53,385 bases of DNA from an uncultured Spartobacteria bacterium (GTDB taxonomy: Bacteria > Verrucomicrobiota > Verrucomicrobiia > Chthoniobacterales > Chthoniobacteraceae). The stretch lies in contig CAIYUV010000044.1 in the NCBI GenBank assembly GCA_903929475.1, positions 1 to 53,385 of the forward strand, in the 5' to 3' direction. Below the pieces are notes generated by a model, which was given only the letters and a program-made list of their open reading frames with translations, did no database searches and was not told where the DNA came from. Below are positions 47,867 to 51,608 of this stretch, in pieces. The translations under genes and the position numbers were made by a program. Each line of letters opens with the position of its first letter. Within the stretch, counting starts at the first letter, position 1.

Positions 47867-47973
47867 ACCGCCAAGATGTTTCCCCCACCGCCCAAGTGCA
47901 AGCCCACCGAGAACCCATTCGCCCTTCCGACGCTGCGATTGACCCTCTATCCGCAGCGTGCCAGCCTCCACAC

Positions 47974-48135
47974 ATGAGTTCTCTTCCTGTTGAACTACCA
48001 GCCAGCACAGACCTCCACAGTGGCGATGAAGTGACCATTCACGCGCACGTCGTCGGCAAGCAGCTCGTAGCTGACACGGTTCAAAAGCCCCCACAACCGA
48101 CAGCTCCGATACACGGCAGCGGCACGAAGGAATGA
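47974..48135 (+). CDS. Possible 53-residue protein upstream of the PIN toxin
   Basis: Starting at ATG 47974, a short frame reads 'MSSLPVELPASTDLHSGDEV' and continues with a strand-like 'TIHAHVVGKQLVADTVQK'. It lies 21 bases before the PIN-domain gene. Antitoxins of VapBC systems usually precede the toxin, and 'GDEVxI' stretches occur in AbrB/MazE-like antitoxins, but the similarity is slight. Open frames exist in the other direction too, so this could be chance. No clear ribosome-binding site was seen. Confidence 0.3.
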   Translation: MSSLPVELPASTDLHSGDEVTIHAHVVGKQLVADTVQKPPQPTAPIHGSGTKE

Positions 48136-48156
48136 TGCGATAGAACCATCCAGCCA

Positions 48157-48630
48157 ATGAAGCCGCGCCTCTATCTCGAAACCACCATCCCCAGCTACCT
48201 CGTCGCCCGTCGCAGCCGCGACCTCCGCATCACTGCCGATCAAGAAACCACCACAGAATGGTGGGATACCAAACGGCATGAATACGATCTTTTCACCTCC
48301 GAAATCGTCATAGCGGAAGTCTCCGAAGGAGACGGCTCCATGTCGAAGGCCCGGATGGAAATCCTCGCCAGTGTCCCACGGCTGTCTGCACTGCCCCAAG
48401 CGGATGAGATCATCGAACTACTCCTGCGCGACGGCATTATTCCACCGAACGCCACTGCAGACGCAGCACACATCGCCCTCAGCATCGTCCACGCGATGGA
48501 TTTCCTCCTTACGTGGAACTGCAAACACATCAGTAACCCACACAATTTTCGGCGCATCGAGCGCATCTGTGCCAGACGTGGATACGCCTGCCCCGTCATT
48601 TGCACGCCAGAACAACTCCTGCCACTATGA
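48157..48630 (+). CDS. PIN-domain protein (VapC-like toxin)
   Basis: 157 residues. 'MKPRLYLETTIPSYLVARRS' is the opening of a PIN-domain subfamily of toxins (the usual LD at the start of the domain is LE here), 'TSEIVIAEVSEGD' provides an acidic pair, and 'DAAHIALSIVHAMDFLLTWNCKHI' carries the remaining Asp and Asn positions of the active site. VapC-type toxins are RNases that cut tRNA or rRNA. The stop overlaps the ATG of the downstream small gene (ATGA), which is expected to be the antitoxin of this family. Confidence 0.8.
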   Translation: MKPRLYLETTIPSYLVARRSRDLRITADQETTTEWWDTKRHEYDLFTSEIVIAEVSEGDGSMSKARMEILASVPRLSALPQADEIIELLLRDGIIPPNATADAAHIALSIVHAMDFLLTWNCKHISNPHNFRRIERICARRGYACPVICTPEQLLPL

Positions 48631-48836
48631 ACACCATGCAACCGAACTCGATACTCGCCGAAATCCGCCACACACGCGATGAAATGGCCCGTGCAGCCGA
48701 TTACGACGTAAAGAAATTCATGGATGCAATCCGAAAGCGCGAACACACCTCCGCCGCACAAGGCATCACATTCGCCAATCCGATGCCGGACGAAGGTGAA
48801 ACCTGCATCCTCCGCGAAGAACCGCCGAAAGCCTGA
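48627..48836 (+). CDS. Probable antitoxin partner of the PIN toxin
   Basis: 69 residues from ATG at 48627, overlapping the toxin stop (ATGA). The N-terminus 'ILAEIRHTRDEMARAADYDV' is helical and charged. This small protein family is found directly beside PIN proteins like the one above, and its order after the toxin is usual for it. A partial copy of its N-terminal segment lies directly downstream. No DNA-binding motif of a known antitoxin class was recognised. Confidence 0.65.
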   Translation: MNTMQPNSILAEIRHTRDEMARAADYDVKKFMDAIRKREHTSAAQGITFANPMPDEGETCILREEPPKA

Positions 48837-48839
48837 GCC

Positions 48840-48899
48840 ATAAACGAAAACGACATCCTCGCCGAAATCCGCCGCCTCCGCGACGAACTTCATCGAATG
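48840..48899 (+). pseudogene. Decayed second copy of the antitoxin N-terminus
   Basis: Four bases after the antitoxin stop, the sequence encodes 'NENDILAEIRRLRDELHR', close to 'ILAEIRHTRDEMAR' in the intact gene. It lacks an ATG (ATA at 48840 stands where the start would be) and breaks off after about 19 codons, where a different frame continues as the fragment below. Confidence 0.6.
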
Positions 48900-49074
48900 G
48901 CATTTCGCCATCCACCTCGGCGGCACCATCACCGGCGAACACGGCGTCGACCTCGCCAAAAAACCCTTCCTCCCCAAAGCCATCGGCGAATCCAACCTCG
49001 CGTTGATGAAACAACTCAAACGCGCCCTCGCCTCCCTCAACATCCTCAACCCCGGAAAAATCTTCGACGTGTAG
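48889..49074 (+). pseudogene. C-terminal fragment of a GlcD-type FAD-linked oxidase
   Basis: In the frame ending at TAG 49072-49074 the sequence reads 'HLGGTITGEHGVDLAKKPFL', later 'LASLNILNPGKIFDV' and then stops. This is the terminal part of glycolate oxidase GlcD or D-lactate dehydrogenase, where 'GGTxSGEHG' is a conserved metal-site region and 'LNPGKIF' the end. No upstream part of such a gene exists here, so it is a remnant of about 60 residues. It is fused directly to the decayed antitoxin copy. Confidence 0.75.
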
Positions 49075-49093
49075 CCTTCGCTGTCGCACAAAA

Positions 49094-49621
49094 TCAGGCA
49101 CTGCGATCTCGTTGGACGAAATAGCAAGTCACTACATACGCGAAAAGCGTGCAGAAGAGATTGAGCGGGAACGAAAGCAGAACAATGAGCCAGCCGATCT
49201 GGACTCCGGTCATGGCACCCTCTGCGAATATGCCGAGCCGCCGATCCCACGGTGGAAAATATCCCGCCTGCATATCATGAAAGGTCCAAAGAACGCCTCC
49301 AACAGCACTACTGAGAAGTAGCGTTGTGACAATTACTACCACCAAGCCTGCGTGCATTCGCCAGCCAGTGGATCGCGTGCGAATACCCCAAGCTGCCGCC
49401 ACAAGAGCATAAATAAATGCCACGAGACCGAGATACTGTGCTGGATGCTCATAATGGTAGAGGAACATGCGGAACAGAGCACCAAAAACACGCTCCTGCC
49501 TGCAAACGGAACCAAGAAACCAATAACCACCAAGGCTTGTCGAAAAAGTGAGGCTGAAGAGCACAGCGAAAAGTCGAATGAACCTCATCCAAGTTGCCGA
49601 CCGCATTTGGGTTTCACTCAT
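49094..49621 (-). CDS. Small polytopic membrane protein of unknown function
   Basis: 175 residues from ATG at 49621 (MSETQMRSATWMRF); the open frame goes further upstream without coding character. Four hydrophobic segments are visible ('LFAVLFSLTFSTSLGGYWFL', 'YLGLVAFIYALVAAAWGI', 'AGLVVVIVTTLLLSSAVGG', 'IGWLIVLLSFPLNLFCTLFA'). No family is recognised. It is convergent with the remnant genes and lies next to the repeat-rich intergenic region. Confidence 0.55.
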   Translation of the reverse strand: MSETQMRSATWMRFIRLFAVLFSLTFSTSLGGYWFLGSVCRQERVFGALFRMFLYHYEHPAQYLGLVAFIYALVAAAWGIRTRSTGWRMHAGLVVVIVTTLLLSSAVGGVLWTFHDMQAGYFPPWDRRLGIFAEGAMTGVQIGWLIVLLSFPLNLFCTLFAYVVTCYFVQRDRSA

Positions 49622-49814
49622 AGGAAGGAGTAGCGATGGAAAACACCGCATCGATCCGCAGTGGAATTGTGAGCGGTGTGGGCATGGGTTAAGGAGAGCA
49701 GCGCGGCATCTTGCCAGCAAGCCGGAAGAGATCCCGTGGCTCCATGCGCTTCGTGGTTTTCAGGGTGAAGGCAAATGGCTTTGCGGGTTGGCGGGTTGGC
49801 GCGAGATTTTTGGC

Positions 49815-49844
49815 GGGTGGGGATTTTGGGTGGGTTGGGGCGGG
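49815..49844 (+). other. Putative G-quadruplex cluster (six G-tracts in 30 bases)
   Basis: Six runs of three or four G's (49815-17, 49819-22, 49828-30, 49832-34, 49837-40, 49842-44) are separated by loops of one to five bases on the plus strand. This exceeds the standard four-tract rule for a quadruplex. It lies in a G-rich non-coding stretch about 200 bases before the 42-bp array. No quadruplex-related function is known for this site. Confidence 0.6.
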
Positions 49845-49968
49845 ATGCGATGGGCTGGATGGTGTGTTGGGGGCTTTGAAAGCGCTCGGCGAACTGGGAT
49901 GGTGGGGGTGGTTTGCCTTGGATGACTCGGATGGGCATGGATGGAATTTGTGGGATGGCATGTTCCGC

Positions 49969-50005
49969 TCATCCGTGGCCATCCGTGATATCCGTGGTCG
50001 AAAAA
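49969..50005 (+). repeat. ATCCGTGG-type short interspersed repeat
   Basis: Three near-copies of 'ATCCGTGG' occur here (TCATCCGTGGCC, ATCCGTGATA, TCCGTGGTCG) followed by AAAAA. Phrases of this kind are seen repeatedly in intergenic DNA of environmental bacteria. It directly precedes the 42-bp array and is a different repeat. Confidence 0.5.
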
Positions 50006-50034
50006 TCCGGTGTTCGTGTTTCTTGACGGGGTGT

Positions 50035-50454
50035 TGAAGTGCCTTGTTGCGGCGTGCATTGAGGCTCATCGAGTATTGATGTGCTTTGTTGCGGGCTGCA
50101 ATGGTGCCTATCGAGAGTTATTTTGTGCTATTTCAGGCTGCATTAATACACATCGAACGTTGATGTGAATCATTGCAGCGTGCATTGAGGCACTTTGAAT
50201 ATTGTTGCACTATATTGCAGTCTGCATTGAGGTATTTGAATACTTCATGTCTCTCAATGCGTCCTGCATTGACTCACTTTAACGCTCGATTTGGCTCATT
50301 GCAGCGCATTTTAATGCACTGCAAAATGCCATCTGCCTCGATGCAGCCTGCTCTGTGGCACTCGAACATTCCATTTGCCTCAATGCAGCGCGCTCTGTGG
50401 CACTGCGACATCCCTTTCGGGTTGTTGGACGGTGCTTTGTCCTGCATGGTCATG
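50035..50454. repeat. Array of ten degenerate 42-bp tandem units with no indels
   Basis: The anchor trinucleotide (TTG/ATG/TTT) recurs at 50047, 50089, 50131, 50173, 50215, 50257, 50299, 50341, 50383 and 50425, always exactly 42 bases apart. Units share a core like 'TTGCAG', 'CGTGCATTGAGGCAC' but differ at many positions. The core is an imperfect dyad (CTCATTGCA facing TGCATTGAG). Forty-two bases is 14 codons and also four turns of B-DNA. The later six units are open on the plus strand as a 14-residue repeat with 'MQRALWH' at its core, while units 1, 2 and 4 begin with an in-frame TGA. Confidence 0.85.
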
Positions 50455-50534
50455 AAGAGGGCGTTTTTTAGCAATTCTCCCTTGAAAAACGGCGTTTCGG
50501 GGGCAGAATTTCGGGCGTCAAAACCTCAACTCCT

Positions 50535-51470
50535 ATGTCGCAGAACATCACTCCCGTCAATTATACCCCGCTCGTCGCCCTCGCCGAAGATGTGGCGGAC
50601 GGCGCGCAACTCCACGAAGCCAGCATCGGCCTTTTGCAAAACACCGCTGCGCGCATCCGCAACGACCGGGCGGCACTGACTTCGGCGGAAAGTGCGCTGC
50701 TTTCGTGCCGGGTGGCTAAATCGGCGGCGGCGGCGGCGCTCCGCTCGGCGGATCGCGATGCGGCGGAGTTCATCGCGCTCTTTTTGCACATCGGGAAGAT
50801 GACGCTGGGGCGCACTTGGAACGCGACTTGGGAGCAGGCGGGGTTTTCCGGCGGCTCGCTCGCGGCACCGCGTTTGCGCGATGCGCGGTTTGCGCTGCTC
50901 GGGGCGATGCGCGATTTCCTCGGCGGCAATCCGCAGTTTGAAATCACGGACGCAAACCACCCGGAACTCGCGCTGACGGCGGCGCGGGCGTCGGCCATTT
51001 ACGAGGCGATCTCGACGGCGCGCTCGGCGCTCAACCAGGCCGAGGTGGACAACAGCGCGGCGCTCGCCATCCGCGATTCGGCGAAAGTGGCCCTCCGCCG
51101 CCGCATCACCGGCCTGCGCGAAGAACTCGGCCAGCTCATCGCGGGCGATGATCCACGCTGGCTCGCCTTCGGTTTCAACCGCCCCGCCGACCCCGACACA
51201 CCCGAAGTCCCCGACCGCCCCACCGTCGCCCCCGGCGCGCCCGGCAGCGGCATCCTCATCGTCCACTGGCCCCGCGCCCGCCGCGCCACCCGTTACAAAC
51301 TGCTCGCGCTCCTGCAAAATTCCACGACTCCGCTTGACCTCGGCCTTTTCACCGACAACCAAGCCGTCATCACCCTCCCCTCCGCCACCCGCGCCCAAAT
51401 CCAACTCCTCGCCCACAACAAACACGGCTACAGCACGCCAAGTGAAGCGGTGCAGGTCTTCGCACCGTAG
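50535..51470 (+). CDS. Uncharacterised helical protein with a C-terminal FN3-like domain
   Basis: 311 residues. The first 210 are mostly alpha-helical and Ala-rich, with two marked stretches: 'LGRTWNATWEQAGF' and, at the end, 'DDPRWLAFGFNRPADPDTP'. The last 75 form a beta-sandwich-like domain of fibronectin type III character ('GILIVHWPRARRATRYKLLA', 'HNKHGYSTPSEAVQVFAP'). No signal peptide is visible. It begins 80 bases after the 42-bp array and may be linked to it. Proteins with these motifs seem to be characteristic of Verrucomicrobiota, but no function is known to me. Confidence 0.7.
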   Translation: MSQNITPVNYTPLVALAEDVADGAQLHEASIGLLQNTAARIRNDRAALTSAESALLSCRVAKSAAAAALRSADRDAAEFIALFLHIGKMTLGRTWNATWEQAGFSGGSLAAPRLRDARFALLGAMRDFLGGNPQFEITDANHPELALTAARASAIYEAISTARSALNQAEVDNSAALAIRDSAKVALRRRITGLREELGQLIAGDDPRWLAFGFNRPADPDTPEVPDRPTVAPGAPGSGILIVHWPRARRATRYKLLALLQNSTTPLDLGLFTDNQAVITLPSATRAQIQLLAHNKHGYSTPSEAVQVFAP

Positions 51471-51608
51471 CAATGCGCGGGGGTTTTGGATCGCAGCCGT
51501 GTCTTTCTAAGACGTCAATGCGCCGCGTAAGAAAGCGCTCATAAGTTCGCTCGCCAATTTCTCGTGAACACACCAAAAGCCTTTGCAACCAATCGCCATC
51601 ACCCATCC

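Follow-up and report, generated by a model that had tools for sequence, protein, structure and literature searches.

Arrays of ~21n-bp dyad units upstream of helical-Fn3 genes in Verrucomicrobiota: a candidate spacing-constrained cis element

Introduction

Plasmid Rep iterons and parC-type centromere sites are sets of sites with a shared sequence that is read by the adjacent protein. The arrays described here resemble them in having ~20-bp sites regularly spaced, at one or two helical turns, close to a gene promoter; however, we recognise neither a replication nor a partition gene beside them, and near-identical genes (91% identity) are preceded by unrelated arrays, so that the arrays lack a shared site sequence for the neighbouring gene's protein to read. 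Bacterial minisatellites (VNTR loci) share with the present arrays the whole-unit change of copy number and the homogenisation of units, and the head-to-tail units found here likewise vary in number between homologous loci; the differences are the fixed 41/42 (21n) period, the dyad in most units and the position 5' of particular gene families. REP and BIME elements of the GTAG and CGTC super-families repeat one sequence across the genome, are marked by a GTAG or CGTC tag and are found mostly 3' of genes (PMC3733652). Short intergenic palindromes, alternating unit orientation and clustering are common to both; in contrast, each of the present arrays has its own sequence, a fixed unit length and a position upstream of one kind of gene, and in place of one palindrome dispersed genome-wide, the array studied here has no sequence relative in its own genome. 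In Beggiatoaceae, a regulatory role has been proposed for intergenic TAACTGA heptamer repeats (MacGregor 2015 as cited in PMC4853749). As far as the citing paper describes them, these too are short phased direct repeats, but they keep a constant 7-bp sequence and do not form 21n dyad arrays. Searches of the open-access literature yielded no description of arrays of the present kind.

Here we analyse a ten-unit array in a stretch of 53,385 nucleotides from an uncultured Spartobacteria bacterium (the window, which means this whole stretch) and its counterparts at other loci, which precede genes for short cytoplasmic-looking proteins with a helical N-terminal and an Fn3/beta C-terminal domain. 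Features of the locus are collected in Table 1.

Table 1. Coordinates of the array, the gene that follows it and the surrounding segment
Feature	Position	Strand	Remarks
Segment with array and gene A	47924..51540	.	absent at the same place in the same-genus genome G005, 45 bp instead
Ten-unit 42-bp array	50035..50454	.	each unit an imperfect dyad; consensus TGATGTGCCTCATTGCAGCCTGCATTGAGGCACTTCGACATT
Unit 10 of the array	50413-50454		weak
Leader, array to gene A	50455..50534	+	80 bp
Gene A	50535..51470	+	311 aa, intact; multi-copy family
Gene A, N-terminal long-helix bundle	helices 10-31, 38-90, 115-131, 149-201 (residues)		predicted structure
Gene A, C-terminal Fn3 domain	about 219-311 (residues)		predicted structure

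Results

The array in the window

A leave-one-out profile applied at 42-base steps from 50035 scores all ten units in register at +10 to +38 bits, shifts of up to 6 bases improve no unit's score, and the units flanking the array score -12 and -21 bits, which confirms the coordinates and the unit count of the preliminary description. The register is perfect over ten units of 42 bp that are ~40% diverged from one another; identity at lag 42 is 0.608, against 0.259 +/- 0.022 in shuffled sequence (z 15.8), and in the rest of the window the top identity over all lags from 10 to 130 is 0.41. TRF detected the two ends of the array only. The dyad previously reported for each unit is real and larger than claimed: scored against the forward profile, the reverse-complemented array fits in a single phase, at a mean of +20.6 bits per unit against an all-phase average of -34, and the whole unit is self-complementary, its two dyad centres (unit positions 19 and 40) being separated by 21 bp. 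A CRISPR array was rejected as an identification, because the entire 42-bp unit varies gradually and a constant repeat is absent.

Neither the DNA of the array nor its 14-residue peptide had any match other than the array itself in its own genome, in 56 relatives, or in plasmids and viral contigs. An isolated sequence with no relatives had been named beforehand as an outcome that would speak against a genuine element; the sequence is indeed unique in the own genome and the 56 relatives, and the architecture recurs in dozens of cases. A promoter and terminator scan gave nothing above shuffles, and helical (10.5-bp) phasing of A/T was not found in the arrays, which thus carry no bent-DNA signature.

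Association with gene A and two further families

The structure predicted for the gene A protein, a long-helix bundle followed by an Fn3 domain, is of high confidence (pLDDT 92). The Fn3 fold is supported by a Foldseek match to titin Fn3 (E 3e-5) and a VIA-align Z of 14.5 over 89 residues, the Foldseek matches in BFVD and PDB falling mainly on the Fn3 part; Pfam fn3 is matched by 7 of 16 family members (best E 5.8e-4) and not by the window protein itself. No signal peptide is seen by eye, and tblastn against plasmids and phages gave no match to gene A. Gene A has paralogues in its own genome and in five of the nine congeners, with 0-10 copies per genome within the one genus.

The paralogue loci provided the route to related arrays, an autocorrelation scan finding a period of 41 or 42 at most of them and placing every such array 5' of the gene. 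Gene-A loci were gathered from public Verrucomicrobiota genomes and by family and phylum searches, and were counted if the flank was long enough. An upstream array is present at 56 of 63 loci (54 of 61 after two duplicate records are dropped), with a best period of 41, 42, 63 or 82-84 in all cases except one, in which 31 scores just above 41. Twelve of the 63 downstream flanks pass the same threshold, none of them at 41, 42 or 84. Among control ORFs on sampled contigs, 4/176 in the own genome (G000) and 2/162 in a congener without gene A (G007) have an upstream array, so that gene-A loci differ from controls (6/338) with a Fisher p of 2e-53. The arrays lie 0 to ~440 bp upstream of the genes, with a few farther away, and the DNA conserved between gene-A paralogues usually starts ~20-120 bp before the ATG, 3' of the array.

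Two more gene families, which appear to be helical/beta and for which no relationship to gene A was detected by sequence (for the second, a profile comparison gave no homology), are preceded by such arrays. The second family (MKRxxYYP, about 233 aa) was reached from a contig picked at random in the own genome, which holds up to 11 matches, several of them fragments. Six of its seven testable loci have 21- or 42-bp upstream arrays with a best lag identity of 0.60-0.90, and the seventh, in a distant genome (G072), is weak at 0.51; several loci share an A/C-rich leader resembling that of many gene-A loci. Its structure model is of low confidence (pLDDT 74), and the beta domain should be taken as no more than predicted. 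The third family (about 212 aa) was reached from a 21-bp array in the congener G003; arrays of 21, 42, 63, 84, 41, 62 or 64 bp lie upstream in 26 of 30 loci and downstream in 1 of 29. Plasmids and viral contigs gave no match to family 2, and plasmids, phages (tblastn) and viral contigs none to family 3. The occurrence of arrays at three families indicates that the base unit is ~21 bp and that the array is tied to a class of genes and not to one family.

Architecture, sequence turnover and spacing

In 46 of 50 extracted gene-A arrays the unit is self-complementary (p<0.05), and under a stricter null dyads are found in 15 of 27 arrays of the other families. The typical gene-A unit has a strong dyad with ~8-bp arms and a 3-bp centre and a weak dyad half a unit away. 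Periods of 21, 41, 42, 63 and 84, with half-units alternating in orientation, point to a spacing quantum of ~21 bp (two helical turns). TpA is strongly avoided in all 50 gene-A arrays, at 0.22-0.29 of expectation, against 0.48 in the upstream flanks. Except at orthologous loci, arrays of different loci mostly have unrelated sequences: gene pairs of 86-91% identity have unrelated arrays, and for L023 and L027, two loci of one genome with genes 91% identical, array similarity is no higher than for shuffled sequence. As each array has its own sequence and the spacing of 41/42 bases (two times about 21) recurs in dozens of them, spacing and not sequence seems to be the conserved feature.

The preliminary description argued that something holds the spacing, and comparison of orthologues bears this out: in two close pairs (L067/L100 and L082/L089) the arrays show 70 substitutions and 0 indels, the upstream flanks 72 and 7, a modest contrast in indels (p 0.015). 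Substitutions in the arrays of these pairs accumulate at about two to three times the rate of the leader (8.7 vs 2.5% and 16 vs 8%), and by eye the changes look partly like blocks, resembling conversion between units. Within arrays, where 28% of positions are substituted, 7 register changes were counted over 360 units, a figure to be read with the fact that detection at a constant lag favours in-register arrays; beyond the array ends, 5 of 98 continue with a one-base shift. Other orthologous arrays differ by whole units (7.3 and 5.2 in L015/L018, 11.2 and 6.1 in L088/L090, 11.2 and 5.3 in L019/L027). Free indels and random copy number in homologous arrays had been proposed as the outcome that would undo the original claim; copy number does differ, by whole units, and free indels are absent from the two close orthologous arrays. 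The suggestion of DNA sites phased at four helical turns fits better than a coding repeat, with the correction that the quantum is ~21 bp, or two turns, and not 42.

Coding and RNA explanations

It is very improbable that the array codes for a protein repeat of 14 (or 7) residues, the other explanation first offered. Such a repeat would agree with 42 and 21 being divisible by three and with the open frame present in many arrays, but no frame is open throughout the window array, all six being closed, as the in-frame stops noted earlier had already indicated. The period is 41 bp in 12 of the 50 arrays, which rules out a reading frame as the cause of the spacing, and open frames occur in these 41-bp arrays too, while only 5 of the 50 arrays are open in frame with the gene; the open frames elsewhere arise because TpA avoidance is so strong. 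Codon positions in the window array are equally variable (56/53/50), so that, with no frame open, the changes once called synonymous-looking are not a coding signal. A coding tandem repeat was therefore rejected on the stops, the 41-bp periods and the absent codon-position signal.

Transcription of the array as a leader or a separate RNA, with 41/42-nt hairpins that would be processed or would serve as binding sites for the helical-Fn3 protein, or a corresponding role as single-stranded DNA, is unlikely. The window array folds better than shuffles (z -6.5 as RNA, -5.6 as DNA), UpA is often avoided in RNA as TpA is here, and kept structure with free sequence is typical of RNA. Good folding is, however, expected from any array of symmetric units, and Rfam gave only chance-level matches, none near threshold. 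Complementarity within a unit (0.652) is like that between neighbouring units (0.645-0.652; Wilcoxon p 0.63), and the ratio of G.U to A.C among imperfect pairs is 1.28 against 1.30 expected. Within-unit covariation is absent both in the arrays and in the orthologues, in which double compensatory changes are limited to one or two at the most, not above chance in most arrays. Arms that match no better within than between units, together with the lack of a G.U excess, disfavour RNA hairpins and agree with symmetric sites in double-stranded DNA.

History of the locus

In G005 the genes that flank the segment 47924-51540 are 90-95% identical to those of the window and directly joined, so that the array and gene A shared their gain or loss at this place, along with other DNA; the segment is variable DNA and no precisely bounded cassette. 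Within it, at 48157-48836, two small adjoining ORFs resemble by eye a PIN-type toxin-antitoxin pair. It is conceivable, and in our view quite unlikely, that the arrays are sites of cassette exchange or insertion and that helical-Fn3 genes multiply by landing 3' of them. The span of gene-A copy numbers within the genus, the start of paralogue homology just 3' of the array, the unrelated arrays of L023 and L027 and the presence of array and gene A inside the segment absent from G005 would all agree with such a platform. Against it, neither a recombinase nor a precise insert boundary was found, the absent segment is 3.6 kb long and includes other genes, and gene A is no known recombinase.

The last ~19 bases of the leader (GTCAAAACCTCAACTCCT) are common to a truncated paralogue on contig C86 of the own genome, the array of which is unrelated. 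Broken gene-A copies are present at L033 (G000 C86), where a 21-bp GGACGTCC array ends 18 bp before the start, and at L110 (G000 C202), a locus with a 42-bp array (0.83); decayed genes thus also have arrays beside them.

Discussion

With the coding and RNA explanations failing, the choice narrows to a symmetric element of double-stranded DNA and a by-product of the way arrays form. Our best reading, to which we give a probability of about 0.4, is a spacing-constrained double-stranded-DNA cis element, that is, a putative multi-site regulatory or architectural array acting on the downstream gene. It is proposed that the array would act as double-stranded DNA, with successive dyads facing one side of the helix, about two turns apart. 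A putative host architectural or regulatory protein, recognising the symmetric and regular spacing and not tuned to a fixed sequence, would load cooperatively along the array, and the loaded array would set transcription of the downstream gene. Recombination would homogenise and replace units, the unit length being under selection, and this replacement would explain the unrelated sequences before near-identical genes.

Against this cis element speak the unrelated array sequences, which would be difficult for an ordinary sequence-specific binder, the missing A/T phasing, the modest contrast in indels and the bias of detection towards in-register arrays. Also against it are arrays of the same period that stand without such a gene, several in G000 (C138:14-480, C138:53089-53614, C251:19479-19699 and C70:4185-4755) and two in 400 kb of G007 (C3:9019-9846 and C12:18753-19402), which make a general array-making process possible. 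Some of the arrays with no recognised helical-Fn3 neighbour sit at contig ends. The free-standing arrays keep alive the main rival, a minisatellite process that favours a quantum of 21 bp: these genomes would readily form 21n-bp dyad arrays that have no function of their own, by slippage or template switching with homogenisation by unequal exchange, and helical-Fn3 genes would land or be copied beside them. We consider this somewhat unlikely. The whole-unit differences between orthologous arrays, their divergence at about two to three times that of the leader and the unrelated arrays of genes 86-91% identical are as such a process would predict; yet the position is upstream throughout (for the third family, 26/30 against 1/29 downstream), one period is kept across bacterial families despite unrelated sequences, and old arrays such as that of the window, at 40% divergence, stay in register.

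A wider interpretation of the cis element, which we offer tentatively and regard as possible at most, is that a short helical-Fn3 gene and a private ~21n-bp dyad array controlling or maintaining it make up a genetic unit of Verrucomicrobiota not described before; selection would act on spacing and symmetry and not on sequence, and the cell would read the geometry of DNA. An element that keeps unit length and symmetry amid free sequence turnover is unusual, and this one is associated with three uncharacterised gene families, of which a single genome can hold up to ten matches to gene A and eleven to the second family. Should the arrays be functional, they would be a cis element read by its geometry and a first handle on the role of these proteins; if not, they would reveal a mutational process whose quantum is fixed at 21 bp.

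Further features of the loci

At about half of the gene-A loci an N-terminal extension in frame with the gene, of the type MNWDEGTWDSGFWDEPS...NRRT, spans -111 to -1 relative to the inner ATG; it is rich in tryptophan and aspartate (NWDEGxWDxGxWDxPS...K.K.NRRT) or takes the form of FGQAFFGDGSRFG or FYDSGARYD variants; similar short motifs also precede third-family members. At many loci in Verrucomicrobiaceae (L079, L081, L085, L092, L093 and others) gene A is followed, ~950-1100 bases past its start, by a collagen-like gene of the pattern MPYDPxLPANNSPNSSAQMRAQLNGLKDLIDA...GPxGPxG...SDPPTQxEVQ..LDELIxALRR, the PHROG tail-fibre matches of which are probably due to the collagen repeats. Direct repeats of 7 bp (CGGTTAT/CGGTCAT, CACTGAC/CACCGAC) and ATCCGTG-type repeats lie just 5' of some arrays, at L022 1012-1086, L031 763-814, L037 735-817 and, as seen by eye, ~49975-50010 of the window.
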